The notes under the pieces: generated by a model
Databases searched by the model: none
Seen by the model: only the letters and a program-made list of their open reading frames with translations
Told to the model about the DNA's origin: nothing
Translations under genes and position numbers: made by a program
Assembly: GCA_003165465.1 (NCBI GenBank)
Contig: PLUM01000012.1
Span: 1 to 33,926 of the forward strand
Reading direction: 5' to 3'
DNA from: Acidobacteriota bacterium
Lineage (GTDB): Bacteria; Acidobacteriota; Terriglobia; Acidiferrales; UBA7541
Length of the DNA stretch: 33,926 nucleotides
In this document: in pieces, positions 2,278-28,510 of the stretch
How positions within the stretch are numbered: the first letter of the stretch is position 1
Layout of the letters: each line of letters begins with the position of its first letter

Positions 2278-2278
2278 C

Positions 2279-3328: not shown

Positions 3329-3444
3329 GCCGCCACTCCCCTTTGCCGAACCTGGAGAAATGATACACCGGAAACGAAAATGCAACTTCCGGTCTCGCAA
3401 ATGGAATGCACTTTTTTTCGTAATGAAGAGTTCCTACCAGACAG

Positions 3445-7276: not shown

Positions 7277-7380
7277 TACATCTCCTTTTGGTGTCCGGAT
7301 AGCCAGCGACGACTTTTCGGAATCGTTCATTATTAATTATTTCCTTACCCGACTACACTCACTCCAGAAAATTCTATGAT

Positions 7381-7778: not shown

Positions 7779-9230
7779 TCAATTGCCGCTGGGAGGGGTC
7801 ACATCCGGGGCCTTCACAACGCCCACGAGTGCTTCCTTCAGCAACTCTACCGACACAACGCCCTTGCCATGTGCCGGGGCAAGCTGCTGCACATCGAGGT
7901 TCAACCTCTTCAGATTATCGCCCAGAGCCGCGTAATAGGGAGAGACGATTCCCGGCGGCGGGTCGTTGGGACGTGGTTCGCCAAACTGGTTGAAGATATC
8001 GGTGATGAACAGGATCTTTTCCTTCGGCAGGTATGACATCAGGAGATTGGCCGTGTGTCCGGCGCCTGGGACAGCGTAGATTTCCAGGGTGCGGTCTCCG
8101 TCCGTCAGAACATACTTATCCTTAACCCATATGAATTTAGCCGGCGTTGGGTGCTCGGAAAGCCTGTCCGGTTCCAAGGTGTGGGGATTCTTCAGAACCA
8201 CCTGCTCGTAGAATGTCTTGTTCATTTCGTGCGTGATGATGGTCGAGCCTTCGACGACAAACACCCGCAGGCCCGCCGCGTGATCGGAATGGTGATGACT
8301 GTTGATGTGGTAGCGGATCGGCTTGCCTGGAACCAGTCGTTTCACTTCCTCTATGTTGGCCAGCGCGCGAGCCTCCGTCACCGAAGACTCGATGATGACC
8401 ACATAATCCTTGAATTCCACGGCCATGCTGTTCGGGTCTGGAGTGCCGGCAAGATACCAGACGCCATCCGCGATCTTTTGCGATTCCACATGCGTCGTCA
8501 TTTGCCCCGCGCGAGGAGCTTCGATATTGGCCGGCGCGTTCGGTTGGACATTGCTGACCGTCAGTTCGAGCACCGGGAAGACGCCATCCTTTTGGAGGAT
8601 CTTCATGGGGAATTTCACGCCGGCAAAATCCTTGTAGTCCGAATAGTCCGTCTCAATCAGCGTATCGCCGAGGATCGGATTGGGCATCCAGGTTTCGACC
8701 TTTTCCAGAAAATTTTCGCTGTTGACGTACCCGTTCACTTTGTATTTGTCTCTCACGGTGAAGGAGATGACGGTCAATTTCTTGCCTTTGACGGTCACGG
8801 GCTTCATGACCGGATTCGCAGCCATCGCCGCTTTCACCCATCCGTACGGCGTGAGCGCAACCGCTCCCCCGCCCCAGGGCGAATTCTCGGTCGAGACCGT
8901 CACACCGCGCGCTTCCCTGTACAGCGGCTGTCCTCCGCCACCGCGCGGCGGGTTTTCGAATTGCGTTCGAACCAGCTCTTCCCGGGAAATATTTTTTCCG
9001 TAGTCCACCACGCGCGAGTACTTCGCGTAGAACCTCGGGTACGGACCATTCGGAAGATAGCTCTGGCCAAACTGAGAGTAGATCCCGCTGCCGGAATACT
9101 GAATCGTATTGACGCTGGCTGCTCCAATGGTTCGCGAGACATCGCCAACTACACTTTTTGCGTCTCTTGGCGTGCCAGTGCTGCCGCACAATGTCAACAA
9201 CGCAAGAACGGGTAACCATTTTTTCCGCAT
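7779..9230 (-). CDS. Exported metallo-beta-lactamase-fold hydrolase
   Basis: The 483-residue product starts at 9230 with GGGGGAG 7 nt upstream. It has a short signal peptide (WLPVLALLTLCG; Cys15 could be a lipidation site, though the lipobox is imperfect). A roughly 220-residue N-terminal beta-rich domain precedes the metallo-beta-lactamase domain (about 245-475). The zinc ligands are visible: the HHHSDH motif at H312-H317 (D316 included), H392 in GHTANLL, D411 in FITDIFN and H454 in APAHGKG. This superfamily hydrolyses lactones, thioesters and similar bonds, so the substrate is open. A similar two-domain layout is common in Acidobacteriota proteins annotated only as MBL-fold hydrolases. It lies between the cytochrome-Vgb fusion and the receptor on the same strand, but with gaps of over 200 nt, so it may have its own promoter. 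Confidence 0.87.
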   Translation of the reverse strand: MRKKWLPVLALLTLCGSTGTPRDAKSVVGDVSRTIGAASVNTIQYSGSGIYSQFGQSYLPNGPYPRFYAKYSRVVDYGKNISREELVRTQFENPPRGGGGQPLYREARGVTVSTENSPWGGGAVALTPYGWVKAAMAANPVMKPVTVKGKKLTVISFTVRDKYKVNGYVNSENFLEKVETWMPNPILGDTLIETDYSDYKDFAGVKFPMKILQKDGVFPVLELTVSNVQPNAPANIEAPRAGQMTTHVESQKIADGVWYLAGTPDPNSMAVEFKDYVVIIESSVTEARALANIEEVKRLVPGKPIRYHINSHHHSDHAAGLRVFVVEGSTIITHEMNKTFYEQVVLKNPHTLEPDRLSEHPTPAKFIWVKDKYVLTDGDRTLEIYAVPGAGHTANLLMSYLPKEKILFITDIFNQFGEPRPNDPPPGIVSPYYAALGDNLKRLNLDVQQLAPAHGKGVVSVELLKEALVGVVKAPDVTPPSGN

Positions 9231-9454: not shown

Positions 9455-11149
9455 TTATTCGCCAGAACCCTTGCCGCTCAGCACCTCGACGTACCCAATG
9501 TGGTTCGACGTGTCGCCGCCCCACCACACGCGATTCGGATTGGTAGGATCGAGTTCGATCCTGCGCATGTCGGATTCGGCATTGGGCACGGAGAATTCGA
9601 GAAAAGTTCCGCTCTTGGGATCGAAGCGGGTGATTTTGTCCGCCGCCTGTTCGCTGAACCATACGCGACCCTGGGGATCACCCACGGCGTCATACGGCGC
9701 TGCGTTCTCGGTGGGAGGATCATAGATCGTCATTTTGCTCGTTTCGTAATCGATCTTCATGAGCTTGCCGGATTCATGCAGGCCCACCCAGATATTTCCG
9801 TGTAAATCCGAGCCCATTCTGCGGGGGATCGAATTGGGGAGGGGTGGCTCGTACTCATCGATTTTCCCCGTCTCCGGATCGAGCCGTCCGATGCGGCTGG
9901 GATCGCGCTCGGCGAACCAGACTCGGCCGTCTCCCGAAATTGCCATCCCGTATCCCTGCGCGCTCTTCTTCGTTTTTACCCAATAAGGAATGGGATAGGA
10001 GACGAACTTTCCAGTGGCCGGATCCAATCCGATGACATGGGTGGTGCCCGCTGCCCAGATCTTTCCACTCTTATCGGCGATGATCGTGTTCGACCCGGCG
10101 CCACCCTGGATCGAATCGGGAACCGGAAAGACGCTGAATTTACTCGTCTTGGTATCGTAGCTTACCCAGCGCCGGTTGTGGCTGACGTCCTGAACCCAGA
10201 TTCTGTCGCCGTCCTGTCCGATGGCGCTGGAAATGCGCGATTTTACGTTTCCGGGGGGCAGCTCAATTTCCGTGAAGGTAAATGTTTTGGGATCGAATTT
10301 GGCGATGCAGCAGCCGTTGCGCTCGGCGACCCAGGCGTTGCCGCGCGGATCCGTAGTCAGGTCGTGCGGGTCGCGCTCCGGATCCCTCGGAAGTTCGAAA
10401 TCCACGGCGACGTAGTTGGCGGTCGCGCCCTGCAGCAAAGCCTTGGGCAAGCGGCTATTGGCGTCCGGTCTTGCATTGGCCATTCCCGGCGCCCCGGAGT
10501 AATTCTTGGTGAGATAGCTGACGACCGCCGCTTCTTCCAGATCGGAGACTTCCTGCATGCCGAGGTCGGCTATATATTCGCGCATGCGGTCGACCGTCGA
10601 TTCCCACTTGGCGCGGTCAAAGCGCAGCAGCACGATGCGCTCGGTTTCGTGGCATTGCGTGCACTTCTCTTGAACGATCTCTTTGCCCTCGCCTTCCACA
10701 AGAGGCGTCTGCGGCTCATGAACCCAAATCTCGACGCCACCTACTTTGCCGGGCCTGCCCGGCCATCCATTCGCCAATGGGGCCGGCTGAGGAGAGGAAA
10801 GCAATAGATCGGCATTTGCCGGCTTACCTGCCGCCACGTTTACCGGCATTGGAGTGCTCTGAAAGCCAGTACCGATTCCCTGCACGGTGTATTTTCCAGC
10901 AGGAAGATTCTTGGCAGTGTACCGCCCCTGAGCCTGACTGATAACCATAAAGGTCAAACGCTTTTCGGAGTTGTAGAGTTTTACATAAGCGCCTGACAGC
11001 GACTGACCGGAAGAGCTTTTTACCACTCCCTCGACAATTCCAGTCGCGTCTGCCTTGGCGCGAGGGGGAGTGCAGAGCAGTACGAAAGCTGCAACGATTG
11101 CGATGAAAATCGCAGGAAATATGCGCTTCAACATTTGTTGGATCCTCAT
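9455..11149 (-). CDS. Exported fusion: carboxypeptidase-regulatory domain, cytochrome c and Vgb/SMP-30-like propeller (copy 1)
   Basis: The 564-residue product starts at 11149 behind AAGGGG; an in-frame ATG at 11134 is an alternative. In order: signal peptide to about residue 33 (ending AKA), a carboxypeptidase-regulatory-like domain at about 35-118 (GIVEGVVKSSSGQSLSGAYV), then a small cytochrome-c domain at about 150-220. The haem motif is CTQCH at 163-167. The rest is a propeller of virginiamycin-B-lyase type with repeated WVAER/WFAER and FDPKT blade signatures. Vgb proteins are metal-dependent lyases that open cyclic depsipeptides, but most relatives have unknown substrates. Haem next to the propeller suggests a redox role, perhaps electron transfer from a periplasmic oxidation. 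Two paralogs are at 13926 and 20814. The molybdenum hydroxylase gene lies directly upstream on the same strand. Confidence 0.87.
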   Translation of the reverse strand: MRIQQMLKRIFPAIFIAIVAAFVLLCTPPRAKADATGIVEGVVKSSSGQSLSGAYVKLYNSEKRLTFMVISQAQGRYTAKNLPAGKYTVQGIGTGFQSTPMPVNVAAGKPANADLLLSSPQPAPLANGWPGRPGKVGGVEIWVHEPQTPLVEGEGKEIVQEKCTQCHETERIVLLRFDRAKWESTVDRMREYIADLGMQEVSDLEEAAVVSYLTKNYSGAPGMANARPDANSRLPKALLQGATANYVAVDFELPRDPERDPHDLTTDPRGNAWVAERNGCCIAKFDPKTFTFTEIELPPGNVKSRISSAIGQDGDRIWVQDVSHNRRWVSYDTKTSKFSVFPVPDSIQGGAGSNTIIADKSGKIWAAGTTHVIGLDPATGKFVSYPIPYWVKTKKSAQGYGMAISGDGRVWFAERDPSRIGRLDPETGKIDEYEPPLPNSIPRRMGSDLHGNIWVGLHESGKLMKIDYETSKMTIYDPPTENAAPYDAVGDPQGRVWFSEQAADKITRFDPKSGTFLEFSVPNAESDMRRIELDPTNPNRVWWGGDTSNHIGYVEVLSGKGSGE

Positions 11150-11334
11150 TGCCCCTTCTGGGGCGATACATTTTTTAGAAATAGAGGCCGCACCCGATCA
11201 CGATAAACTTCGGCGGGGTATATGCCAGCCGCCCGCCAGTGTCACCTGAAATCTGGAAGTCCACTTCGAAATTGCAAAGCGGTCTTCGTCCTTGCCCCGC
11301 AATGAAACACTGCCGGGCAAAATAGAATGCGCCA

Positions 11335-13617
11335 TTACGCAGTGCTGCCGTGAAGCGCGCGCAGGACGCGCTCCGGCGTGAACGGGACCTCGCGCAGGCG
11401 CACTCCAACGGCATCGAAGATAGCGTTGGCAATCGCCGCGCCGGTGGCGATCGACGACGCTTCTCCACCGCCCATCGGCTGCATGGCCGGCTGGTTGATG
11501 AGCACGATTTCCACGTCGGGGACTTCGCTGAACCGGATGATCGGGTAGTTCTGCCAATCGAGGCTCTTCACGCCCGCGGAATCGAAATCGACCTCCTCCA
11601 TTAGCGCGCGGCTGGTGCCCTGAATTACGTTGCCTTCGATCTGATTCCTGAGTCCATCGGGATTCACGATAATGCCGCAGTCGTGCGCCACGGTGACTTT
11701 CTTTACCGTCACTTTGCCGGTGGACTGGTCCACTTCAATTTCAGCCACCTGGGCGACAACTGTACCCGACAAACCCGACAACGCCAGGCCGCGTCCCGTG
11801 GCGAGGTTCTTGCCGCCGCGCTGAGGTGACGGACGGCCCTGCCATTGCGCCTTGCTGGTAGCCGCGTGCAAGACATCGACGATACGCTTGCTGTCGCCCG
11901 CGCCGAGGTGGCGCAGGCGAAATTCCAGCGGATCGGCGCCGGCCGCGGCCGCCATCTCGTCCATTTGGGATTCGGTGGCGAAACAGCGCGCCTGGCTGTA
12001 CGGCGCGCGGAGGTTACACGTACGCAGCGGATTCGCACTCATAATCCACGGAATGCCGGACACCACCGCTTTGCGGTCTTCGAAATTGTACGCGGCGCCA
12101 TCGTTCCCGCCAAGAAACACGCCGTTTTCATCGGGCTTGATGCCGGTCTGTCGCGAGGCGAGCATCGGTGTAAGTCGCGCGTCGGTCCACGGCAGCGTGC
12201 GTTCAGAGTATTCCCAGGCGATGACTTTTCCCTGCGCGTCAACGCCGCTGCGGATGGAAATCAACTGCGGCGGCCCCTTCGGTTCCCAACCGTGCTCGTC
12301 TTCGCGCATCCACTGCACGCGTACGGGTCTTCCCGTGGCGCGCGACATCAGCGCCGCATCTTCCGGCGCGTCGTCCGGTTCCAGGCGCCCGTAGCAGCCC
12401 GAGCCTTCCAGGTAGATGAAGTGAATGTTCTGTTCGTGCAGCCCGAGAAGCCGCGCGACGCCGTTCCGCGTGATAAACGGCGCCTGGGAACCGGACCAGA
12501 TCGTGGCCTTGTCGCCCTGCACATCGGCGACGGCGCACGACGGTCCGATCATGCCGTGCATTTGGAATGGCCAAAAATACGTATTTTCGAATTTCTTCGC
12601 TGACCGCGTCATGGCGCCAGCTGCATTTCCCTTCTCGGTGCCCGCCCGTTCGGCAAAGCTCTTTGTGTTCCGGAGATAGTCGTACATCGCCGCGGGGCCG
12701 GAGGGGAATTGCTTCGGCGGCGCAGACCAAGTGACCTTGAGCGCCTTCGCGGCGCGGATCGCCGCCCATTCGGTCTCCGCCACCACGCCGAGGAAGGAGC
12801 CTTCGCGCACCACCTTAACGATCCCTGGAATCTGCTTGATCGAGGATTCGTCCACGGTGGCGGGCTCTGAGTTTACGACGGGCGGGCGCACAACGCGGCC
12901 GTGCAACATGCCGGGAATCCGCAGATCGGATGAGTATGTAAATTCACCGGTAAACTTTGGAGGAAGATCAAAACGCGGCACCGATGTGCCGACGATCGTG
13001 TAGTCCTTGGGATCTTTCGGCTTGACGTCTGGTGCGACTTTGATGTCCCACTGCTCACCGCTTGCGGAAATTTTCGTCTCGAAACGCTTTCCGCCCACCA
13101 GCGCCGCGTAAGAAACCTTATCCGTACTCCCGGCGACGCTTATGACGCCGTCATTCACAATCATCTGCTCGGCCGGAACGCCCAAGTTCGCCGAGGCGCG
13201 CTTGATTAGCTCGTGCCGCGCAGCCGCGGCTGCCTGTCGCATCTGAGGTCCCGCGCGCTCAAGCGTCCGGCTGGCGGACGTGCGGCCCTGGTCCACGGAT
13301 TTGTCGGTGTCGCCGATCTGCATCCGAATTTTTGAAACCGGAATGTCGAGTTCTTCCGCGACGATTTGGCCTAGCGCCGTGCCGGTGCCGGTGCCGAGAT
13401 CGACTTTGCTGGTGAAAACGCTGACGGTGCCGTCCGGTGCAACGGCGATCCAAGAATCGAGTTCGTTCGGGGAGAGGCCCCCGGCGTTCGAAATAGGCGT
13501 GCCCCCCTGCATTCCTTGCGCAAGAAGCCTGGACACAGGTCCGAATAAGTTAAAGCTTACGATGAGCACGCCCGAGCCCTTCAGAAGATCTCTACGGGAA
13601 ATCGCCTTGAATGTCAT
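11335..13617 (-). CDS. Molybdopterin-binding subunit of an xanthine-dehydrogenase-family hydroxylase (IorB-like), Tat-exported
   Basis: The 760-residue protein starts at 13617 with AGAGGA about 8 nt upstream. It has a twin-arginine signal (ISRRDLLKGSG, residues 6-16, and a hydrophobic stretch). The body matches the isoquinoline 1-oxidoreductase beta-type large subunit: QGRTSASRT near 110-118, CYGRLEPDDAPEDAA near 408-422, VRVQWMREDEHGWEP near 432-446, and GGGEAS with the catalytic Glu at 719. Such subunits carry a molybdopterin-cytosine cofactor and hydroxylate N-heteroaromatics or oxidise aldehydes using water. Length is normal. The usual small 2Fe-2S partner is not adjacent and is absent from the window, so electrons must leave through a partner encoded elsewhere; the adjacent cytochrome-c fusion is a candidate acceptor (inference). 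A divergent promoter region separates it from the second cytochrome-Vgb gene. Confidence 0.92.
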   Translation of the reverse strand: MTFKAISRRDLLKGSGVLIVSFNLFGPVSRLLAQGMQGGTPISNAGGLSPNELDSWIAVAPDGTVSVFTSKVDLGTGTGTALGQIVAEELDIPVSKIRMQIGDTDKSVDQGRTSASRTLERAGPQMRQAAAAARHELIKRASANLGVPAEQMIVNDGVISVAGSTDKVSYAALVGGKRFETKISASGEQWDIKVAPDVKPKDPKDYTIVGTSVPRFDLPPKFTGEFTYSSDLRIPGMLHGRVVRPPVVNSEPATVDESSIKQIPGIVKVVREGSFLGVVAETEWAAIRAAKALKVTWSAPPKQFPSGPAAMYDYLRNTKSFAERAGTEKGNAAGAMTRSAKKFENTYFWPFQMHGMIGPSCAVADVQGDKATIWSGSQAPFITRNGVARLLGLHEQNIHFIYLEGSGCYGRLEPDDAPEDAALMSRATGRPVRVQWMREDEHGWEPKGPPQLISIRSGVDAQGKVIAWEYSERTLPWTDARLTPMLASRQTGIKPDENGVFLGGNDGAAYNFEDRKAVVSGIPWIMSANPLRTCNLRAPYSQARCFATESQMDEMAAAAGADPLEFRLRHLGAGDSKRIVDVLHAATSKAQWQGRPSPQRGGKNLATGRGLALSGLSGTVVAQVAEIEVDQSTGKVTVKKVTVAHDCGIIVNPDGLRNQIEGNVIQGTSRALMEEVDFDSAGVKSLDWQNYPIIRFSEVPDVEIVLINQPAMQPMGGGEASSIATGAAIANAIFDAVGVRLREVPFTPERVLRALHGSTA

Positions 13618-13780
13618 TGTCGACGTTCCTCTCTGAAACGTTTCCTCGCGCGGCCATAATATTCCGGTTCATAAGGAGCGAAGAGAAACGGAATTTTCAT
13701 CCCTGGCGACTCCTCGCTACTTGGTATGAAGGCATCGGCGGAGTTGGCAACAACTACTCAGCGGGTATGATAATCCCAAA

Positions 13781-13806
13781 CCTGCCGAAATAACCTGCCG
13801 AAATAA
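13781..13806. repeat. Perfect 13-bp tandem repeat in the divergent promoter region
   Basis: CCTGCCGAAATAA occurs twice with no gap (13781-13793 and 13794-13806), ending 3 nt before a possible -35 element. Placed between the divergent hydroxylase and cytochrome-Vgb genes, it could be a regulator-binding site. Confidence 0.6.
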
Positions 13807-13809
13807 TCC

Positions 13810-13838
13810 TTGACCTGTAAAATAGCGCCTCCTAATAT
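13810..13838 (+). promoter_or_regulatory. Candidate sigma-70 promoter of the second cytochrome-Vgb gene
   Basis: TTGACC (13810-13815) and TAATAT (13833-13838) are separated by exactly 17 nt, about 85 nt upstream of the chosen start at 13926. The tandem 13-mer lies immediately upstream. This is a sequence match only. Confidence 0.4.
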
Positions 13839-13925
13839 GATTGGAGATGGACTTTTTGCGGGTATTTCCCTTTGAACTCATTGCCCGAATGAAATATGAA
13901 TTCTATCAAGGACCGAGAAGTTCCC

Positions 13926-15641
13926 ATGCGAGCATCAGGGTTATTTCTGACGATAGTCGCGACCGTAGCTGCTTTGCTATTTCACCCCGCGATTTCGCGG
14001 TCGGATGTCGCCAAGAGCGAAGCCTCGGAATCCCTCACCGGACAAGTTACCTCGACCGAAGAGGGTGCCATGGAGGGAGTGCTCGTCAGTGCCAAGAAAG
14101 TGGGCTCGACGATTTCCGTGACGGTGGTGAGTGACGAGCATGGGCGTTACCGCTTCCCCGCAGGCAGGCTGGAGCCAGGGCACTACGCGCTTCGAATCCG
14201 GGCGGGCGGATATGACCTGGATAGCCCGAGCTCAGTTGACATTCCAGCCGAAAAAGGTGCGTCGGTCGATATCAAACTCCGCAAAACAAGTAATCTTGCC
14301 TCGCAACTCACGAATTCGGATTGGCTCGCAAGCTTCCCCGGAACTCCCGAGCAAAAAGCTTCCGTCCAGAACTGCTCACATTGCCATACGTTTGAGCGGA
14401 TCGTCCGGTCGACTCACGATACAGATGAATTCATCGGGGTGCTGGAGCGGATGTCGCGGCACACGCCGGAATCGTTTCCTCTGATGGTGCAGCCGGATGG
14501 CCCCGGACGCCTGGGCGGCGGTGAAATGAATACCGACCAGGAGGCGCAACTTCAGGCGAATCGGGAAAAGCAAGCTGCGTATCTCGCCACCTTGAACCTA
14601 AGTTCCGTTGAGCAGTGGGCGTATCCGCTCAAGATCGCACCACGGCCGAAGGGCAAGGCGACGCAGGTGATTATCACGGAATACGATCTGCCCAAGCAAA
14701 CGCGACAGCCGCACGATGTGATCGTCGATTCGGAAGGCACGGTTTGGTATGCCAGCTTCGGGGAAGCCATTCTGGGGAAGCTCGATCCTAAGACGGGCAA
14801 GGTGACGGAATACCCAATGCCGATACTGAAGCCCGGCCGCATTATCGGAAACCTGGATTTGGAATTTGACGAGGACCAGAATTTGTGGGTCGCCATGACG
14901 TTCCAGGGAGCGGTCGCCAAATTCGATCGGAAAACGGAGCAAATCAAAATCTACAAACTTCCGGCTGAAATGGACGGGGATTACCGGGAGTTCACATTCG
15001 TGAGCCCGAATCACAGCAAGGTCGACGGCAAGGTGTGGGTCAACGATTCGGGAACGTATACGATTCTGCGGCTGGATATTGCGTCAGGCAAATTCGAAAC
15101 CTTCGAGCCGTTTCCTACTTCGCGGCCCACTCTTTATCAGGTCTCTTCCGACGTGCAAAACAACGCTTATTTTACGGTTATGGGGCGTGAGGACATCGGA
15201 AAAATCGATGCGAAGACGGGGAAAATTACGACGTATCCGACGCCGACTCCCAATTCGGCGCCGCGGCGCGGATCGTTGGACGCCCAGGGTCGCTTCTGGT
15301 TCGGGGAAAACCGGGGGAACAAGATCGGGATGTTTGACCCGAAGACGAACAAAATCCAGGAATGGGAGGCACCCACATCGTTTTACATGCCGTACGACGT
15401 AACGACGGATAAGAAAGGTGATACCTGGGCCGTGACGGAATTCAGCGATACTGTATTGCGGCTCAATTCAAAAACCGGGCAGTTCACGGACTATCTCATG
15501 CCCCGCGAAACGAACATGCGCCGTGCGTTCGTGGATGATTCAGGCGAGCAAGTGAAGTTCTGGGTGGGCAATACGCACTTGGCCGGCATCATCCAGGTTG
15601 AGCCGCTTGACAGGCCAGCTGTCGCGACGGCTACCAAGTAG
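13926..15641 (+). CDS. Exported fusion: carboxypeptidase-regulatory domain, cytochrome c and Vgb-like propeller (copy 2)
   Basis: I chose the ATG at 13926, which begins a clean signal peptide (MRASGLFLTIVATVAALL, cut near residue 26) and has GAGAAG about 6 nt upstream. The ATG at 13896 would add ten polar residues. The product is 571 residues. A regulatory-like Ig domain spans about 36-120. The cytochrome-c motif CSHCH is at 150-154 (His axial; the distal ligand is probably a Met in 175-220, such as M176, M187 or M201). The Vgb-type propeller occupies about 235-560 with repeated LDPKTGKV, WFGEN and FDPKTNK blades. It resembles the genes at 11149 and 20814 in order of domains, but the sequences have diverged well. 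The gene is divergent from the molybdenum hydroxylase, which suggests shared control. Function and substrate are unknown. Confidence 0.88.
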   Translation: MRASGLFLTIVATVAALLFHPAISRSDVAKSEASESLTGQVTSTEEGAMEGVLVSAKKVGSTISVTVVSDEHGRYRFPAGRLEPGHYALRIRAGGYDLDSPSSVDIPAEKGASVDIKLRKTSNLASQLTNSDWLASFPGTPEQKASVQNCSHCHTFERIVRSTHDTDEFIGVLERMSRHTPESFPLMVQPDGPGRLGGGEMNTDQEAQLQANREKQAAYLATLNLSSVEQWAYPLKIAPRPKGKATQVIITEYDLPKQTRQPHDVIVDSEGTVWYASFGEAILGKLDPKTGKVTEYPMPILKPGRIIGNLDLEFDEDQNLWVAMTFQGAVAKFDRKTEQIKIYKLPAEMDGDYREFTFVSPNHSKVDGKVWVNDSGTYTILRLDIASGKFETFEPFPTSRPTLYQVSSDVQNNAYFTVMGREDIGKIDAKTGKITTYPTPTPNSAPRRGSLDAQGRFWFGENRGNKIGMFDPKTNKIQEWEAPTSFYMPYDVTTDKKGDTWAVTEFSDTVLRLNSKTGQFTDYLMPRETNMRRAFVDDSGEQVKFWVGNTHLAGIIQVEPLDRPAVATATK

Positions 15642-15962
15642 CGTAACCAAAATAAGAGATCTCTGGTCACTGCCGGCGGAAGGCGCCCGAAAGGGACCTG
15701 ATCCGCGGGAAGCTTTTCCACATCGGAGGTCAAGTTCCATTTCTTTAGAGTTGCAATCCCTGATTCGGTCTCTAGATAGGCTTCGAGATCCCGCGCAGTC
15801 TGTTCTTCCATGACACAGTATCTCGGTTGCTTTCACAACGAATCGGCAGCCGCGGCTTTTCCATCGCCGAACGTCGCAGGGTTGAATCCGCGTTTTCGAC
15901 CTTCGTGAACACAATCCTGGAACAGTGGGAGGTCTGCGATGGCCTCCTATCCGCTAGGGAAG
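15642..15962. other. 321-nt gap between convergent genes
   Basis: No clear terminator with a T run was seen for either convergent gene. A minus-strand frame from an ATG at 15811 reads about 66 plausible residues in this gap (EEQTARDLEAYLETESGIA) and then runs 150 nt antisense into the cytochrome-Vgb gene. It has no good ribosome site, so I do not call it. Confidence 0.4.
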
Positions 15963-17309
15963 TTACCGGCTGCTCGGGTGGACCGGGATCGCGGGACCGG
16001 GCTTCGGGCCCGTGTATTTAAGTATCCAAATTCCCTGACTGCGGTCAGACATGTAGATGTAGCCCCGCGTATCCACCACAACCTCGGCGCCATTGGAAAT
16101 AGGTACTTCGCCATTTGGGCCCATTAGTTCCTTCTTAGTCGTATTCGGCGGAATGAAGTAACCGATCTCTTTTGGCAATCGGGCATCCGAGATGTCAAAC
16201 ACGCGCAAACCCGCATTGGTGTAAGTCATGTAAATGATGTTATCCGAATGATCCACGTTGGGATTGTGGAACAGCATGTTCACGTTGTGCGCGCCGAAAC
16301 CCTCGCTCCTTTCGCAAAAGTCCTTGTACGGTGCGTCGGGGGGCGGAACGGGAACGGGGAAAAACGACAAAATCTTGGGTTTGGCAGGGTCCGCGACATC
16401 GATTAAGGAAGCCTGGCTCGGTCCATCCGCGCAACCCCCTTCGGAGTTTGTCTCCACAATTTTCCGGCTCGGAAATGGCAGCACGGTATGGACAGCGAAA
16501 AGGAGATGGTACGGAGGATCAAACGATAGTTCGCTGACCTCCTTGGGATTGCGCACGTCGCTGATGTCCAGGATTACCATCTTATTGTCAAAACCAAGAT
16601 AGGCGAGATTGTCCACGATCACGGGAGGTCCGTGCAGGCCATGGCCATGTGGCCAAGCGGCATTGAGCGCGTTCGGGTCCGGCAACTTCAGTTCCGGCAG
16701 CGCCCAGCGCGAGACTTCGAGCGCATGTGCAGGATCGGAAATGTCCACGATCTCAAAAATATTTCCAGAGTAGCCGTTGGCACCCGCGGAAAGATACATG
16801 TAGCGGCCGCCCTGGTAGCCGTTGCGATGAGTGCCGAGGCCGCCGGTATGGTAGTGGCCGAGCAGTGACGGATGCACGGGATCGGCCAGGCTCCAGATCA
16901 GCACGCCGTCATCCCACGGTTTGGTGGGATCCGTGTCGCCACCCCCCTGGGAACGCTCCAGCCCCGTGATCATCTTTCCATCGGCGATGTCCACTTGCAC
17001 GGTGCGGGTATTCTTGGGACCCGGAATCCAGTTGAGGACGGTTGGATCGGCAGGATTCGTGATATCCAGGACGGCCCATCCACGATCGTTCTGTGCGCCC
17101 GCGTACATGTACCAGTGGCCGTTTGCCTGCTGGATCGACATTTTGAACGGGATGTGTCCATCGACGTCCGTGAAGCTGACGAACTCAACATTTTTTGCGT
17201 AGGCTCCCTTCGGGAGCGGCCTGGGCTTTACACTCTGGGCAGAGGCCAATGGGAAAGTCGCCAGCGTAAGTGCAACTGCCCCTAAGAATCCGATCTTTGC
17301 ATTCTTCAT
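15963..17309 (-). CDS. Exported LVIVD-repeat beta-propeller protein (copy 1)
   Basis: The ATG at 17309 is preceded by GGGAGG with 6 nt spacing and begins a standard signal peptide (MKNAKIGFLGAVALTLATF, cut after ASAQ). The frame is open for another 73 codons upstream, but that part looks non-coding. The 448-residue product carries repeated blade motifs of the LVIVD family: GWAVLDITNPADP, FEIVDISDPAHA, MVILDISDVRNP, LIDVADPAKP and LRVFDISDARLP. The repeats predict a propeller; proteins of this group are secreted and mostly uncharacterised. A conserved Cys pair (GGCADG and KDFCERS) is shared with the neighbour and may form a disulfide. The gene lies about 160 nt downstream of its paralog on the same strand, probably in one transcript. 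Confidence 0.88.
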   Translation of the reverse strand: MKNAKIGFLGAVALTLATFPLASAQSVKPRPLPKGAYAKNVEFVSFTDVDGHIPFKMSIQQANGHWYMYAGAQNDRGWAVLDITNPADPTVLNWIPGPKNTRTVQVDIADGKMITGLERSQGGGDTDPTKPWDDGVLIWSLADPVHPSLLGHYHTGGLGTHRNGYQGGRYMYLSAGANGYSGNIFEIVDISDPAHALEVSRWALPELKLPDPNALNAAWPHGHGLHGPPVIVDNLAYLGFDNKMVILDISDVRNPKEVSELSFDPPYHLLFAVHTVLPFPSRKIVETNSEGGCADGPSQASLIDVADPAKPKILSFFPVPVPPPDAPYKDFCERSEGFGAHNVNMLFHNPNVDHSDNIIYMTYTNAGLRVFDISDARLPKEIGYFIPPNTTKKELMGPNGEVPISNGAEVVVDTRGYIYMSDRSQGIWILKYTGPKPGPAIPVHPSSR

Positions 17310-17467
17310 CGCCATCCTCCCGTATTGCAATTCGTGCGGTGCGGGTCTTTCCATTTTGCATTTTCTAATCGGCATAATTTCGGGCTGCATCCCATTCTGC
17401 CGCGGATAGAGATCAATATTGAGAAGCGCCGCCGTCGAACCAATACTTCCATCCATCGGGAATGACG

Positions 17468-18832
17468 TCACTTCGCCGTTGGCGCGGGTTCTCCTTTGCC
17501 GGTGTAGCGCAGGACGTACAGGCCCCACTGTTTGTCGGTGACGAAGATGTTGCCGCGCGTGTCGACCAGAACGTCTTCGGTCTGGGTGACGAGCTTGGTC
17601 TTCGGCATGACGCCGATACGCTTGGTGGGTTGCGGCGGGATAAACCAGCCGACTTCCTGCGGCATCCGGGGATCTTCAATATTGAAAATGCGCAGCCCGG
17701 CGTTGAAGTAGGTGAGGTAGATCAGGTCGCCCTGCTTTTCGACATCGGGCAGGTGATACTCGAGGTTCGTGTTGTGCGGACCGAAGCGGCCGCCCTTGTC
17801 GCAAAAATTTTTGTATGGCGCGTCTTTTGGTGGCACCGGCAGCGGGAACATGGACATCAGGCGCGGGCGAGCGGGATTCTTGATGTCGATCATGGCGACA
17901 TGATCCAGCGGGTCGGTGTCGCAGTTCTCCGAACTGGTTTCCGAGTGGGAGAACAGAAGCGGCTTGCCGGGAATTTTCAAGACATCATGGACGCCTTGTT
18001 GCCCGGCGAGAATGAACGGCGGACTCATGGTCAGGCGGCCGATTTGCTTCGGGTGCGCGATGTCGCTGATGTCGAGAAGGATGATCGCGGGGCCATAACC
18101 CAGATAGGCGATGTCGCCGTCGATGTAGGCGGGGCCGTGATATCCGGGATTGGTGGGCGAGGGGCTGCTGTTGTCGACGATGGGCGGTTCGCCTTCTTTT
18201 TGTCCCGGGAGCCACCAGCGCGAGACCTCCTTGGGATTTTTCGGATCGCTGATGTCCAGGAAAACGAGAATGTTGCCTCTGTAACCAGGCATATTCGCCG
18301 AGACGTTGACGTACTTGCCGCCTGGATACCCGATGCGGTGCACGCCGAGGCCTCCCGTCTTCCAGCGAGAGAGCTCCTTCGGATTGACTGGATCGCTGAT
18401 GTCCCAGATGATCAGGCCCTCGTCAAAGGGCTTGCTGGCGTCTCCGCCCCAACTGGGATAAAGCTGCTCCATCGCGGTGATCATGATGTTGTCGTGCAAC
18501 TCCATCTGAATGGTGAACGTGTTGTCGGGGCCGGGAATGTGCTTGACGACTTTGGGATTGGCGGCGGCGGTGACGTCGACGATCGTCCAGCCGCGCTCCC
18601 ACAGGTGCCCCATGTAGAGGTACCATTTTTCGCCCACGCGCTTGATCGCCATCTTGAATGCGCCGTGGCCGTTCAATTCGCTGTAACCGATCGGCTTCAC
18701 GTTGCTTGCTTCCCAGCCGGCGGGAATTTTGTCGGCAGACGCGCGGCGCGAAAAGGGAAGCGCAAAGAGCGCCGTCAGGATTGCTGTGCCGAAAATTATC
18801 CGCCAAAACGAAGTTATAATTGCCCAATTCAT
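17468..18832 (-). CDS. Exported LVIVD-repeat beta-propeller protein (copy 2)
   Basis: The start at 18832 has GGGAGA 5 nt upstream; an earlier ATG at 18892 does not. A membrane-type signal (IITSFWRIIFGTAILTALFA) ends near residue 33 after RRASA. The 454-residue product has LVIVD blade motifs (GWTIVDVTAAANP, LIIWDISDPVNP, LVFLDISDPKNP, IILLDISDIAHP, MIDIKNPARP, LRIFNIEDPRMP). It aligns along its full length with the next gene, including PPKDAPYKNFC and the PHNTNLEYH segment. So this is a duplicated pair that has diverged considerably. The role is unknown; repeated HG/HT residues in conserved loops could bind metal, which is inference. Confidence 0.88.
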   Translation of the reverse strand: MNWAIITSFWRIIFGTAILTALFALPFSRRASADKIPAGWEASNVKPIGYSELNGHGAFKMAIKRVGEKWYLYMGHLWERGWTIVDVTAAANPKVVKHIPGPDNTFTIQMELHDNIMITAMEQLYPSWGGDASKPFDEGLIIWDISDPVNPKELSRWKTGGLGVHRIGYPGGKYVNVSANMPGYRGNILVFLDISDPKNPKEVSRWWLPGQKEGEPPIVDNSSPSPTNPGYHGPAYIDGDIAYLGYGPAIILLDISDIAHPKQIGRLTMSPPFILAGQQGVHDVLKIPGKPLLFSHSETSSENCDTDPLDHVAMIDIKNPARPRLMSMFPLPVPPKDAPYKNFCDKGGRFGPHNTNLEYHLPDVEKQGDLIYLTYFNAGLRIFNIEDPRMPQEVGWFIPPQPTKRIGVMPKTKLVTQTEDVLVDTRGNIFVTDKQWGLYVLRYTGKGEPAPTAK

Positions 18833-18864
18833 CGATTCTCCCGTCTTGTGGAATATGCGCGTTG

Positions 18865-18892
18865 ATACTAATTGCGCGGGCTGGAAGTGCAA
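18865..18892 (-). promoter_or_regulatory. Candidate promoter of the LVIVD pair
   Basis: On the minus strand TTGCAC (18892-18887) and TAGTAT (18870-18865) are 16 nt apart, about 32 nt upstream of the start codon at 18832. Placement and spacing fit a sigma-70-type promoter; no other support. Confidence 0.35.
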
Positions 18893-19254
18893 CCCGTGCC
18901 CTTGATGATACTACTTTTCACGTTTGGCTAAGATCGCAAAGCCGAATTTGGTGGTATCTATATCAAACTTAGACTCCTGATGGCTACCCCGGAGAGTTTG
19001 TTATGCGCCGTTGGCGGCTCCACTGACTCACCAATGGCACCGTGGCGGTGGTCAACAAGGCTCGTGCAGCCTCCAAACCAGCGGGGCAAGGCAAGGGGAG
19101 TTCCGGGCGGTCGAAATAGGGCATTTCAATCGCTGCGTGGGAACTAGCCTCTCTAGCTGCCCGCTGTTGCCTGACCTTTGCCCACCGAGCCGTTTGACCC
19201 TTCCCTCCCCGCGCCCAGTACACCCGCAAACTAGATCATCATAGAAGGAGTAAT
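18893..19254. other. 362-nt gap between divergent genes
   Basis: No gene, hairpin or repeat that I can support. Short frames on both strands look like noise. A good ribosome site (AAGGAG, just before 19250) belongs to the RNase H-like gene that follows. Confidence 0.6.
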
Positions 19255-19962
19255 ATGAGCCAGAAATGCTTGACCCGCGTGCCATCCACATCTACACGGA
19301 CGGTTCCTATTACAAGAATCCGGGGAGGCTATTCTGGCTGCGCGGCCATCGTTCACTTCCCTGAGCATCTTGATCGCCCTGACGAACAAATTGTTGACTT
19401 TGGATGTGGCGAAAGCAGCATAAACCGAATGGAGCTTTTGCCTTGCATCGAAGCACTCCGCTGGGTTTTTAATCACGCACCTTGGGATGATGTCAGGCGT
19501 GTCATCATCATCACAGATTCGCAGTACGTCACTGACAACTTAAGACGGGCACCCTATTGGAAAAAGCAAGTTTGGAAAAATTTGTCGGGCGAAACAAAGT
19601 TCAACGAAGATTTGTGGGACAGATTGCTGAAGGGTATTGCGAAAATAGCCAAGGTGGGAATCAGAGTTGATTTTGTCTGGGAACAGGGCAAGAAAACTCT
19701 CATGACAAAACAGATTCACCGTGCGGCTCAAACCGCTGCGAAGCGCGGTGGGATTGATGAGGACACTGGGTACAGGCCGGGGGCTGTATCCCGCTCGATG
19801 GTAAACGGTGGCGTTGCTGAGAGATTCCCAGCCGCTGGTCAAGTGTTGGTGGTTCGGCCATACGTGAAGAAAATCATGTACAAGGGAGAGAACAGAATCA
19901 GCTTCAACGTCTTCGACGAACAAACCAACGCCAAATTCCCACATTCCGATCATGCCCGTTGA
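19255..19962 (+). pseudogene. RNase H-like protein, 5' part in a shifted frame
   Basis: The main frame (235 codons) reads GGYSGCAAIV, NRMELLPCIEAL and VIIITDSQYV, the second strand, catalytic Glu and second catalytic Asp of an RNase HI fold. But the first strand with the first catalytic Asp (IHIYTDGSYYKNPG) is encoded in the frame that starts at the ATG at 19266. The two frames join near 19325-19332, where one base too many sits in CCGGGGAGGC. The ribosome site fits the ATG at 19255, which opens the frame without that strand. So the gene has suffered one or two indels, or is read with a +1 shift. The usual fourth acidic residue appears to be His (KQIHRAAQ). A C-terminal extension of about 70 residues is not recognised. 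It stands alone among mobile-element scraps. Confidence 0.6.
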
Positions 19963-20330
19963 TCAGGTTGATCAGGGGGGAATCCGCTCAACGCACTTCC
20001 AACCGCTAGAATCAAGAAGGGGCCGAATGGGTTTAGATCCGGCCCCGGGGTTTGGAGGATCATATTGCTTTGTTGGTTGCAATCTAACCTGAGTGGATCA
20101 AAACATGCTGTATCCCGCGACATAGATCGTAGTGATCCCGATCACCAACGCGGGGAATCCCTGGCATCCTCGGATCGAAGTCCGGCCCCGAGACCGATGC
20201 CGGCAACCATCAAATGCATCCGCTGAAATCGCTGCATTGCTCGGCCGCGCGCAGTATAATTCCGAACAATGGCGCTCCGATCTCTTGTGAAGAGACTGTT
20301 CCAAACGCTGGCAAGAGTCATTCCGCAATG
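19963..20330. other. Gap with a GC-rich hairpin
   Basis: No gene could be supported in 368 nt. An inverted repeat (GGGGCCG at 20019-20025 with CGGCCCC at 20040-20046) encloses a 14-nt loop about 60 nt after the RNase H-like stop. It lacks a following T run, so terminator function is uncertain. Confidence 0.45.
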
Positions 20331-20426
20331 CGGTTTTTGGCATGGGTCACGCAAGGGCTGGCACCCACACTGCAAAAGGGGAACTTGGTGATCCTGGACA
20401 ATCTGGCCACGCACAAAATCCGGGGA
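20331..20426 (+). pseudogene. IS630-type transposase fragment
   Basis: About 32 codons read RFLAWVTQGLAPTLQKGNLV followed by ILDNLATHKIRGI. This matches the region around the second catalytic Asp of IS630-family DDE transposases, where the pattern is FL..V...L.PTL..G..V.MDNL..HK. Nothing upstream or downstream continues the transposase, and no terminal repeats were found, so it is a small internal scrap of an old insertion. Confidence 0.6.
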
Positions 20427-20607
20427 ATCCTTTATGTGGCATGCGGGCCAGCAACTCCGCGTGTTGGTTTCAGGCCACTATATTGAAACGAGGGGCCCAG
20501 ACTGGTGGGAGGGGTTCAAGTACGAGGAACTCGGCAAAGGCGACACCATCATTCATACAGGCGGCAAGTACGACTCGCACTTGCTGGTGCCGCGAATCCC
20601 GATTTGA
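20422..20607 (+). pseudogene. C-terminal fragment of a CocE/NonD-type (X-Pro peptidase S15) hydrolase
   Basis: In a frame different from the transposase scrap, about 60 codons read FMWHAGQQLRVLVSGHYIET and later IIHTGGKYDSHLLVPRIPI before a stop. These match the jelly-roll C-terminal domain of CocE/X-Pro dipeptidyl-peptidases, which ends with a .TGG.YDS.L.LP.IP strand. The catalytic domain is missing. The join with the transposase fragment lies within about 10 nt (20420-20430), so an insertion or deletion event replaced the rest of the gene. Possible ATG at 20434 but no ribosome site, so it is unlikely to be expressed. Confidence 0.6.
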
Positions 20608-20813
20608 TCGAATTCAAAACCGCAGTGACCGGTTCGGCAGACGTAAAACAGATCCAACCCACCCGCGGTCCCAATGGGTGCAGGTGCGCACGCAGTCATG
20701 TGAGGCTGGGCAGGTGAGCATTGTCTTGACGGCAACAATTATTGGGGAGTACAAGAGCGAGAAAGAATCCGATCGCCGAAATTGATAAGGAATTGCGCGC
20801 GAGGTAGAACACG

Positions 20814-22484
20814 ATGTTTCGTGCCAATACGTTTAATTTACTGCGAATCAACCGGAGCTTCACGCAACTATCTGAGAGATTCCTGGTTTGCGCATCGTCT
20901 CTATTCTTGCTCTGCCGGCCAACTCCAGCCACGACGATTACCGGCAGCGTAAAAGGGCCCGACGGTGCACCTTTCATGGGAGCGTTCGTCATTGCCGAGA
21001 ATTCCCAGAACAAGATGACGATTAGCGTCCTGACGGACAAGCAGGGTCACTATCATATTGCTAATCTGCCCCCGGCAACTTATACGTTAAGAACCAGAGC
21101 CATTGGCTACAAAAGCGATCCCCGCCCGGATGTCCGGCTCGCCAGCGACCAGAAAACTATTTCCTTTAATTTTGTCCTGCAAAACGGAACAGTGCGCTGG
21201 AGCGACCTGAACACCTATCAAGGAAGAATGCTCCTGCCCAAGACCAAGGAGCACGACCTCGCGAAAGGTTATCAGGATCCCTTCTTCACAAGTTGCATGA
21301 TCTCTTGCCATTCCTTCCAGACGCAATGGGCTACCGCTGCGCGAGATGAGGACGACTGGCGCGATCGAGTCAAATATATGCGCGACGTCATCATGGCCGG
21401 CGAGGGCGAGGGCGGCACGATGAGCGATCAGAAGGTCGAAGATCTGGTTGCCTACCTGAACGTGGCCTTCGGTATCGATTCCAAGAAACTTAAATCGCCG
21501 GCGGATATGCCGGAATATAAAGCGCTGGTGCGGCCTTTCAGCGAAAGAGCGATGGACATCGCGTACGTCGAATATGACTTTGCGGGTTTCAAGGGATTGG
21601 GACCTTGGAGCGCCGTTGAAGATAAAGACGGGATGATCTGGATTCCGTACTACGGGCGGGGAAATGAAGTCGTTCGGCTGAATCCCAGGACCGCGGAGCT
21701 AACTCGATTTCCGCTGCCGTTTGAGAAAACCGCCGGCATTCATTCGGCCATTCCGGCTCCCGACGGCACGGTGTGGTTTACGGAAGTACCGCTCGGAGGA
21801 ATCGCGCATTTGAACCCAGTGACAAAGGAGATCATCGAGTATCGGGACACTGGGCCTAACGGCCGACCAATCGGCAAACACACGGTCCGAGTCGACGAAT
21901 CCGGAAACATATGGAGCAGCGGCGGCCCCATCACGCGTTTCGACCCGGAAACAAAAGAGTTCGCGCACTTCGATACTCCCGGAACTTATGGCAACGTTGT
22001 CGGCAAGAACGGCGATGAGTGGTTCACAGTCTTCAGGAACGATGGCCCCATTGTGCGGATTTCGAAATCGGGAAAACTGTCCAAGTTCTATCCACCGACC
22101 AAGGGCAAACCGCAGCGGCTTCAGGTGGATTCCGACGGCATCGTCTGGTTCACCGAGCGTGTCGGCGGAAAGATCGGACGCTTCGATCCGAAAACCGAAA
22201 CTTTCAAGGAGTTTCAGTTGCCTGGACCGGAACCGAGTCCCTACGCGATCGGCATCGACCGCAACCACATGATATGGTACGACTCCCACGAGCAGGACGT
22301 CGTGGGACGCTTGAATCCCGACACCGGTGAGGTCATTGAATATCCATTTCCCCACTCGGAAATTTCGATGCGGGAGTTCTTCTTGGACTCTCAGGGACGC
22401 ATGTGGTACGCCAGTTCATCCAACAACCGAGTCGGCTACTTCTATTTCCAAGACGCTGGAGATGGCGGCAGGCAGGCCAAGTGA
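20814..22484 (+). CDS. Exported fusion: carboxypeptidase-regulatory domain, atypical cytochrome c and Vgb-like propeller (copy 3)
   Basis: The 556-residue product starts at 20814 with GAGG about 10 nt upstream. Its signal region is less regular (FLVCASSLFLLCRPTPAT, residues 23-40). A regulatory-like Ig domain spans about 42-122. The haem motif here is CMISCH at 161-166, CX3CH rather than CX2CH, in the same position as CTQCH and CSHCH of the paralogs. The domain's helix after it (DDWRDRVKYMRDVI) and the DQKVEDLVAYLN segment are conserved, so the domain is kept although the spacing changed. The Vgb-type propeller (about 235-545) has WIPYY, WFTEV, WFTER and WYDSH blades with LNPRT/FDPET turns. 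The stop at 22484 lies 32 nt before the first amidohydrolase start, so the gene probably heads a four-gene operon with Tat amidohydrolases. Confidence 0.87.
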   Translation: MFRANTFNLLRINRSFTQLSERFLVCASSLFLLCRPTPATTITGSVKGPDGAPFMGAFVIAENSQNKMTISVLTDKQGHYHIANLPPATYTLRTRAIGYKSDPRPDVRLASDQKTISFNFVLQNGTVRWSDLNTYQGRMLLPKTKEHDLAKGYQDPFFTSCMISCHSFQTQWATAARDEDDWRDRVKYMRDVIMAGEGEGGTMSDQKVEDLVAYLNVAFGIDSKKLKSPADMPEYKALVRPFSERAMDIAYVEYDFAGFKGLGPWSAVEDKDGMIWIPYYGRGNEVVRLNPRTAELTRFPLPFEKTAGIHSAIPAPDGTVWFTEVPLGGIAHLNPVTKEIIEYRDTGPNGRPIGKHTVRVDESGNIWSSGGPITRFDPETKEFAHFDTPGTYGNVVGKNGDEWFTVFRNDGPIVRISKSGKLSKFYPPTKGKPQRLQVDSDGIVWFTERVGGKIGRFDPKTETFKEFQLPGPEPSPYAIGIDRNHMIWYDSHEQDVVGRLNPDTGEVIEYPFPHSEISMREFFLDSQGRMWYASSSNNRVGYFYFQDAGDGGRQAK

Positions 22485-22516
22485 CGATGAGAGATCGAAG
22501 CGATGGAAGGCTACCC

Positions 22517-23605
22517 ATGGGCACTGACACCGGCGATCTGGATCGTGGATCACTCACACACAGTGATTCCCGGCGGAATTTTCTGAAATCGCTGGGCGCG
22601 CTCGGGGCTGGCGCCATCCTGCCGGGCACGGCAGGGTGCCTGGCACGGGCCGCGCGAACGCCCGACGCGAAGCCAAATCGGATTGATGTGCACCAGCATC
22701 TCTTCTCACCCGCGTATATGCGTCGTACCGGTCCGGCTCGCGGGAATGCGCGGACCGACCCTGCGCTGTCCAACTGGACGCCTGCGCGGGCGCTGGAGGA
22801 AATGGACGCAGCCGGCATTGCCACAGCAGTAATGTCCATAGCGACCGGGGGTACTCCATCCAATCTGGGCGGAGAAGAGGCGCGCAATCTGATGCGCGAT
22901 AGTAACGAGTATGGGGCACAGATGGTTAGGGACTATCCCGGACGCTTTGGCTTGTTCGCATCTTTACCGCTACTTGATCCGGACGCCAGTCTCCGCGAAA
23001 TTGAACACAGTTTTGACACGCTCAAAGCGGATGGCATCGCTCTATTGACCGATTACGGGGATAAATGGCCCGGCGATCCAACCTTCGTGACAGAGTTTGA
23101 GGAACTCAATCGCCGCAAAGCCGTGGTATTTATTCATCCGACGACGCCAAGTTGCTGCGGCAACCTGATTCCCGGTGTGCCGGCAGGCTGGACTGAGTTC
23201 GATTTCGACACCACGCGAGCGTTCACTAGTCTGTTGGTCAACGGGGTATTCACTCGTTTCTCCAATATCCGCTTCATCTTTACCCATTCCGGCGGAACGA
23301 TTCCGGTGGTGGCCAGACGCGTCAGTGACATGTTACCCAAGGAAATGGCGGCCGACGCGCCCAACGGCGTCGAAGCCGAAGTGAAAAAACTGTATTTCGA
23401 CATTGCCAACGGGGCCAATCCCTCTTCGCTCTCCGCCTTGACGAAGCTCGTCCCGGTCTCGCAGCTCTTATTCGGGACTGACTTTCCGTTCGTTCGCATG
23501 CGCACTACCGTGGACGGATTCCAGAATTTCGGATTTTCAGCCGAGGATGTACAGGCGATCAACAATGGCAACGCGCTGCGATTGCTTCCACGGCTGGGGA
23601 AGTAG
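22517..23605 (+). CDS. Tat-exported amidohydrolase (amidohydrolase_2/ACMSD-like)
   Basis: The ATG at 22517 has GGAAGG 6 nt upstream; an in-frame ATG at 22487 is weaker. The 362-residue product has a twin-arginine signal (DSRRNFLKSLGALGAG, residues 17-32; Cys41 could be lipidated but the lipobox is poor). Metal ligands are complete: H59 and H61 (IDVHQHL), H207 (VVFIHP), H257 (IFTHSGG) and D322 (LFGTDFPF). The superfamily includes ACMSD, resorcylate and dihydroxybenzoate decarboxylases and related hydrolases; the family's known members are mostly cytoplasmic, so export is notable. It lies in an operon with the cytochrome-Vgb fusion upstream and a paralog 42 nt downstream. Length is normal. The natural substrate is unknown. 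Confidence 0.92.
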   Translation: MGTDTGDLDRGSLTHSDSRRNFLKSLGALGAGAILPGTAGCLARAARTPDAKPNRIDVHQHLFSPAYMRRTGPARGNARTDPALSNWTPARALEEMDAAGIATAVMSIATGGTPSNLGGEEARNLMRDSNEYGAQMVRDYPGRFGLFASLPLLDPDASLREIEHSFDTLKADGIALLTDYGDKWPGDPTFVTEFEELNRRKAVVFIHPTTPSCCGNLIPGVPAGWTEFDFDTTRAFTSLLVNGVFTRFSNIRFIFTHSGGTIPVVARRVSDMLPKEMAADAPNGVEAEVKKLYFDIANGANPSSLSALTKLVPVSQLLFGTDFPFVRMRTTVDGFQNFGFSAEDVQAINNGNALRLLPRLGK

Positions 23606-23647
23606 ATGAATACAGTTGGTACGGCGAAAGAAAATCAAGGAGAAATC

Positions 23648-24733: not shown

Positions 24734-24800
24734 GTGATACCTGACGTGGACACTCAGGGGAGCGAGATCACTTGGGACGTGGAAATCACAAGGAGTGAAG

Positions 24801-25560: not shown

Positions 25561-25562
25561 GA

Positions 25563-28459: not shown

Positions 28460-28510
28460 AATGGACACCTCGTACATCGAAGCTCGGGCGGGTTTAAAAG
28501 ACTTCTAGCC

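Follow-up and report, generated by a model that had tools for sequence, protein, structure and literature searches.

Genes joining a c-type haem domain to a Vgb-type propeller form a large family in an Acidobacteriota genome

The stretch of DNA considered here, which we call the window, comprises positions 1 to 33,926 of contig PLUM01000012.1 from an Acidobacteriota bacterium (assembly GCA_003165465.1). Three of its genes, referred to as genes 1, 2 and 3, encode proteins in which a carboxypeptidase-regulatory domain (CarboxypepD_reg), a cytochrome c domain and a propeller of the virginiamycin B lyase (Vgb) type follow one another in a single chain (Table 1). The original prediction had proposed three open reading frames (ORFs) with this common domain order, and the ORFs, their Pfam matches and a haem profile confirm them. 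Both outer domains score above the Pfam cut-off in genes 1, 2 and 3, CarboxypepD_reg with E values of 3e-13, 1e-13 and 4e-18 and Vgb_lyase with 3e-32, 1e-32 and 1e-31, respectively. Structure prediction, run for genes 1 and 3, gave a seven-bladed Vgb-type propeller in both. The proteins are apparently secreted.

Table 1. Positions of the three haem-propeller genes, their domains and their neighbours in the window
Feature	Position	Strand	Remarks
Gene 1 (P0001, 564 aa)	9455..11149	-	N-terminal hydrophobic segment, CarboxypepD_reg, cytochrome c, Vgb-type propeller
Gene 1 CarboxypepD_reg domain	10799..11035	-	residues 39-117, Pfam
Gene 1 cytochrome c domain	10472..10702	-	about residues 150-226
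Gene 1 haem motif CTQCH	10649-10663	-	residues 163-167
Gene 1 Met189	10583-10585	-	candidate distal ligand
Gene 1 seven-bladed propeller	9479..10432	-	about residues 240-557
Gene 2 (P0002, 571 aa)	13926..15641	+	domain order as gene 1; ORF open from 13896
Gene 2 haem motif CSHCH	14373-14387	+	
Gene 2 propeller	14646..15611	+	profile match
Gene 3 (P0003, 556 aa)	20814..22484	+	domain order as gene 1
Gene 3 haem motif CMISCH	21294-21311	+	CX3CH
Gene 3 Met189	21378-21380	+	
Gene 3 seven-bladed propeller	21540..22451	+	about residues 243-546
Molybdenum hydroxylase large subunit	11335..13617	-	Tat-like N-terminus; directly upstream of gene 1
Metallo-beta-lactamase-fold protein	7779..9230	-	downstream of gene 1
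TonB-dependent-type outer-membrane receptor	3521..7330	-	OMP_b-brl_4 family; kept in locus L121
Two exported Kelch-type proteins	1195..3400	-	kept in L121; Pfam run on 1195-2277 only
Two amidohydrolases	22403..24733	+	directly downstream of gene 3; Pfam Tat signal in the first (only the first scanned)

The haem domain is the part of these proteins that is hardest to see from one sequence at a time. Single-sequence Pfam scans gave haem matches below the cut-off (Dehyd-heme_bind at E 0.0022 in gene 1, Cytochrome_CBB3 at 0.16 in genes 1 and 3) and returned no haem family for gene 2. In the whole-protein models of genes 1 and 3, the structural-alignment match lists were filled by the propeller and listed no cytochrome fold. 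A profile of the haem region built from 56 sequences, in contrast to the single-sequence scans, matches the alpha subunit of quinohemoprotein amine dehydrogenase (QHNDH; PDB 1jju at E 1e-11 and 1jmx at 3e-11; PF09098) and SorB, the cytochrome subunit of sulfite dehydrogenase (PDB 2blf chain B, E 7e-9), in each case over the domain. The original prediction had counted one haem c motif in each protein, which stands for CTQCH in gene 1 and CSHCH in gene 2 and has to be amended for gene 3, where CMISCH takes the form CX3CH instead of CXXCH. A C-X2/3-CH motif is present in 23 of 23 copies of the family in the source genome and in all 130 distinct members collected more widely (111 CX2CH, 19 CX3CH), these members having been chosen by their match to the cytochrome profile. 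Before that selection, 170 ORFs (duplicates included) have a propeller above 80 bits, and in 145 of them the motif precedes it; the 25 without it include both contig-end fragments and truly haem-free proteins. By alignment column, the second Cys and the His are found in 130 members and the first Cys in 128, although all 130 contain the motif. A Met follows the motif by 15-34 residues in every member and falls in the column of M189 in 127. A chance CXXCH match is ruled out by the presence of the motif throughout the genome copies and members, and the haem domain can be taken as genuine. From these residues we infer that haem is covalently attached, most uncertainly where gene 3 carries CX3CH, and it would probably be ligated by His and Met. 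The CX3CH form occurs in all 15 members seen of the clade of gene 3 and in four other members. The source genome has three matches above cut-off to PF01578 (cytochrome c assembly) in a single-family search. Two further members in this genome carry a second haem motif in an N-terminal extension, CWMCH (L022:7969-10149) and CWVCH (L023:4389-6611), and are apparent two-haem versions.

The likeness to the two dehydrogenases extends over the whole haem domain, and the arrangement around it differs. Quinohemoprotein amine dehydrogenase pairs its cytochrome with a seven-bladed propeller subunit, and the two surround a small catalytic subunit. In the family described here, a single such haem domain shares its chain with a Vgb propeller, and gene 1 reaches 20.5 bits with the QHNDH alpha model TIGR03908, whose cut-off is 274.35. 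SorB, in which the Met aligns in the region of M189, is a stand-alone small subunit unlike the fused family; its model NF052246 gives 25.4 bits with the whole of gene 1 and 29.6 bits with the domain, against a cut-off of 93. A third comparison can be made with cytochrome cd1 nitrite reductase, where an N-terminal cytochrome c domain stands before an eight-bladed propeller with d1 haem. Here the likeness is one of domain order.

For the propeller, the natural reference is Vgb itself (PDB 2z2n, 2z2p, 2qc5), with which the window proteins share the Vgb-type seven-bladed fold. They differ from it in being exported, judging by the N-terminus, in being fused to CarboxypepD_reg and cytochrome c domains, and in the residues of their ring, and the NCBIfam models of VgbA and VgbB reach 68-91 bits with a cut-off of 600. 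Our reading of the repeats suggests that the residue opening each blade contributes to a ring, which in gene 1 would consist of H262, S307, N354, Y400, R443 (R444), Y486 and R529. Across the 130 members, Y400 is kept in 128, R444 in 116 and R529 in 111, and Y486 is found in 126 of the 126 members without a gap there; blades 1-3 are variable and blades 4-7 (Y-R-Y-R) nearly fixed. Written out, the ring of gene 1 is H-S-N-Y-R-Y-R, as opposed to Y-S-F-S-V-H-H in the true Vgb proteins of Priestia and Paenibacillus and Y-L-Y-S-V-H-H in that of Streptomyces (the blade 2 letters come from the first ring alignment, the blade 2 column being shifted in a later one). In Vgb, the channel histidines lie in blades 6 and 7, and H270A is called inactive in a PDB title.

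With a Vgb fold this clear, the proteins could be lyases with a haem add-on, performing a Vgb-like acid/base elimination on sugars or lactones while the haem serves a regulatory or structural purpose. Gene 3 and many relatives have histidines in the neighbouring blades 2 and 3, which would overlie the Vgb pair if the ring were turned by three blades, and the EPH of Vgb is replaced by DPH in several relatives. Fifteen propellers of the family were compared with three Vgb proteins at every rotation from 0 to 6 blades; none of them scored highest unturned, and five, gene 3 among them, did so at three blades. However, the best turn varied (1, 2, 3, 5 or 6, never 0), and the register of the family relative to Vgb is therefore not fixed. 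The end-to-end register picked by the structural aligner puts Tyr and Arg at the Vgb His positions. Moreover, the alignments used show no neighbouring channel His pair in any blade register of genes 1 and 2, which thus lack the histidine pair of Vgb, and the haem motif and the Met are kept in all 130 members. Taken together, we regard a lyase as improbable for the family. The original prediction of a redox enzyme rather than a lyase is favoured on these sequences, above all for genes 1 and 2, whereas the His pair in blades 2-3 of gene 3 means that lyase-like chemistry may be possible there.

The proposal of three paralogues in one locus is correct as far as it goes, the three genes being part of a much larger family. 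The source genome, an assembly 89% complete and 6.9% contaminated, holds 23 copies, 22 of them with a CarboxypepD_reg domain; one copy (L018), on a 3.7-kb contig, is 88% identical to gene 2 and may be a strain duplicate of it. Genes 1, 2 and 3 are pairwise 22-25% identical and fall into three deep clades of a tree made by a quick method with SH-aLRT only. Their closeness in the window therefore does not come from recent duplication, and a recent local triplication is ruled out. Two or three members stand together at 12 named loci (L118 and L129 being near-identical). The same fusion was sought elsewhere: at E 1e-30 or better, 54 of 396 sampled Acidobacteriota genomes, the source genome included, match a profile of the 23 copies, the three best candidates per genome having been scored, and gene 1 alone as a query at E 1e-20 matched 7 of 199 genomes. 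The best 80 of 155 relatives come mostly from metagenome-assembled genomes (MAGs) of Acidobacteriota and Hyphomicrobiales, with some from other groups. The haem-propeller fusion is also carried on plasmids of two cultured organisms, Microvirga ossetica and Catenovulum adriaticum. In the open-licence literature searched, the parts are known already, and no description of the fusion, with its conserved ring and its expansion, was found; the main text of PMC3174227, on Solibacter paralogues, contains neither 'virginiamycin' nor 'streptogramin'.

Relatives that lack the haem domain offer a view of the propeller on its own. The core formed by Y400, R443, R444 and Y486 is kept in 14 of 15 haem-free relatives, six of which have the full HHHYRRYR ring; this set omits the fragments L105, L094, L085 and L106, and L064, which has the motif and no domain match. 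In 5 of the 13 such relatives taken into a search for neighbouring cytochromes (all but L038 and L131), the propeller gene adjoins a same-strand gene for a separate cytochrome c. At L141 and L144, both from Methylocystis, the cytochrome gene is upstream and its product belongs to Pfam Cytochrome_CBB3. At L143, L147 and L148 the cytochrome gene begins 4 bases past the propeller stop, and the encoded protein has no Pfam match at 0.001; those of L143 and L148 are class I cytochromes by their match to PDB c552 (E 1e-14 and 4e-15). Four further haem-free, ring-bearing relatives, all plasmid-borne, have no cytochrome within 3 kb, which brings the total to 5 of 17. Two ringless proteins (L171, L175) are outside the 17, a CXXCH ORF on the opposite strand near L067 was not counted, and the flanks of L062, L066 and L067 span only about 1.4 kb. 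It appears that two different cytochromes have become linked to the propeller as neighbouring genes, and a third kind through fusion, and as far as gene order can tell, the split form supports a working link between propeller and cytochrome. The propeller can also exist without a cytochrome nearby. Because fused, tightly neighbouring and separate forms all occur, this partnership is open to testing.

Much of the gene order around genes 1 and 2 is preserved elsewhere. Gene 2, the molybdenum (Mo) hydroxylase large subunit, gene 1, the metallo-beta-lactamase-fold protein, the TonB-type receptor and the two Kelch-type proteins follow one another in the same order in L121, a Terriglobia MAG whose counterpart of gene 1 is 87% identical. 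Relatives of the metallo-beta-lactamase-fold protein follow family members in L121 (87% identical), L125 and L128 (30%). The Mo hydroxylase subunit and Tat amidohydrolases noted in the original prediction do adjoin the genes, and as a general rule a fixed partner of either kind is ruled out, each accounting for 3 of 82 operon-adjacent proteins. These 82 were scanned out of 104 listed, 22 having been set aside on inspection because the ORFs were short or probably spurious; they comprise 6 OMP_b-brl_4 barrels, 3 Mo subunits (MoCoBD), 3 Amidohydro_2, 3 Lactamase_B, 3 Cytochrome_CBB3, 2 FMN dehydrogenases, one GSDH and others. In two Hyphomicrobiales MAGs, an FMN-dependent dehydrogenase gene (L079:84-1304, L080:159-1379) ends 56 bp before a CX3CH member. 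Elsewhere, a PQQ-type sugar dehydrogenase, GSDH, comes after a family member (L130), and cytochromes c precede one (L102). Proteins of the DUF6152 type and 'DLSGVW' proteins recur together near members (L020, L078, L085, L104, L109, L115, L119). The source genome has 22 DUF6152 matches, of which only those on contigs C8, C61 and C114 are near family members, and we therefore make no claim of an association.

Neighbours of this kind raise the alternative that the protein is an electron-accepting scaffold, whose non-catalytic propeller would dock a neighbouring dehydrogenase, the Mo large subunit in the case of gene 1, so that the haem takes up its electrons. The resemblance of the haem domain to the electron-acceptor domains of QHNDH and SorB fits such a role, as do the FMN dehydrogenase genes that closely precede other members. 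The Mo subunit precedes gene 1 in both the window and L121, and in L113 a gene 1 relative begins 48 bp behind a complete 2Fe-2S/Mo/FAD operon. A Fer2_2 search found no match (2Fe-2S) on the contig of the window, and the source genome has 13 Mo large-subunit genes (23 matches merged by hand) for 11 Fer2_2 matches, with contigs C9, C28 and C56 having none. However, the 82 operon-adjacent proteins scanned include three Mo large subunits (window, L121 and L100), two of these being orthologues, and in L176, where another gene 1 relative adjoins a receptor-type gene, a motif scan of the 14 kb listed showed no Mo gene. The ring is kept in haem-free relatives as well, which suggests ligand binding of its own. 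We consider a scaffold possible and on the whole unlikely. Contigs C28 and C56 (L177, L178) contribute two further Mo hydroxylase large-subunit genes to the record.

A second class of neighbour is the TonB-type receptor, found within 10 kb of 9 of the 23 copies in the source genome where 3.6 are expected (p 0.006), and on the same strand within 5 kb of 5 of the 23 (p 0.005). For this comparison, 39 PF25183 matches were merged to 32, one below the cut-off being omitted, and placement was taken as uniform with contig ends ignored. CarboxypepD_reg domains are themselves common to TonB-type receptors. The family could accordingly be a non-enzymatic accessory to TonB uptake, engaged in electron transfer or in the binding of metals or ligands, and PMC6689063, in which cytochrome cd1 nitrite reductase is also named, offers a precedent in AztD, a bacterial propeller acting as a metal-transfer protein. 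In contrast, for 14 of the 23 copies the contig shows no TonB-type receptor within 10 kb, some contigs being short, and an accessory role seems very unlikely to us.

The reading towards which we lean, with confidence a little better than even, is that the proteins are exported single-haem c-type cytochromes in which the propeller takes up a substrate or partner and supplies the haem with electrons. In its favour are the constant haem motif and Met, the profile matches to QHNDH alpha and SorB, the PF01578 matches, the conserved ring, the split form, the varied redox neighbours (Mo hydroxylases, FMN dehydrogenases, GSDH and cytochromes c) and the nearby TonB-type receptors. In this scheme, TonB-dependent receptors would bring in a small organic molecule; that molecule, or a partner enzyme in its reduced state, would be bound at the propeller in the periplasm, and electrons from its oxidation would pass to the haem and on to soluble cytochromes. 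The copies would have diverged in blades 1-3 for different substrates or partners. The ring is the presumed active or binding site, and redox activity, a periplasmic location and the existence of a substrate are likewise presumed. Precedent for such a change of function can be found in CylK, where a Vgb-like propeller is fused to another domain and carries out different chemistry at an active site at the domain interface (PMC8916777). CylK has a Ca-binding N-terminal domain and no haem. BrtB is described as a homologue of CylK, both being cyanobacterial alkylating enzymes (PMC7081238).

Several observations weigh against an electron-feeding propeller. The propeller showed no identifiable cofactor site for two-electron redox chemistry, and no partner is constant among the 82 operon-adjacent proteins. 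The ring can function with no haem close by, since 12 of the 17 haem-free, ring-bearing relatives show no same-strand cytochrome gene within 3 kb or their shorter flanks, and the five split-form positives come from two lineages. When strand is ignored, TonB-type receptors within 5 kb number 5 against 2.2 expected (p 0.066), and within 1.5 kb 3 against 1.2 (p 0.115). A bolder version of the oxidoreductase reading, which we hold to be conceivable and rather doubtful, makes the family a new periplasmic class, an exported counterpart of the quinoprotein dehydrogenases. Here the Vgb-type ring (Y-R-Y-R, with or without His) would be catalytic and pass electrons straight to the fused c haem, CX3CH in one clade, and the class would have expanded in soil Acidobacteriota to about two dozen paralogues in each genome, every one specific for its substrate. 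The enzyme could conceivably bind a quinone cofactor such as PQQ, and the source genome has PqqE in a single-family search.

These proteins seem to belong to a large redox family that has received little study, rather than to the enzymes of antibiotic resistance. Pfam names the propeller part after an antibiotic-resistance family, and relatives in plasmid records are annotated as 'lyase' (Methylocystis rosea, Paraburkholderia sprentiae) or 'cytochrome C' (Catenovulum). Such names and labels can mislead both annotation and counts of resistance genes. If the proteins are indeed redox proteins, exported electron transfer would occupy a large gene family in these soil bacteria, partly beside TonB receptors. 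The clade that has the CX3CH haem motif in every member seen is a point of interest within the family.

The window contains some further features. Two LVIVD-repeat proteins are encoded in tandem at 15963-18892, and together with the Kelch-type and Vgb-type proteins they bring the locus to seven propeller-type or likely propeller-type repeat proteins. A 159-base direct repeat, 96% identical between 26576-26734 and 28838-28996, flanks the region of a 5'-nucleotidase gene (26801-28477), and a third, partial copy of 44 bases lies at 28511-28554; it is possibly a small repeat element. Amidohydrolase-like coding at 24795-26084 is present in two pieces (24795-25469 and 25605-26084) that share DNA repeats with the adjoining amidohydrolase genes, and looks like broken or partly duplicated genes. 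A further amidohydrolase, at 1-1074, is apparently split into the overlapping ORFs 1-388 and 337-1074, both of which belong to the amidohydrolase cluster.

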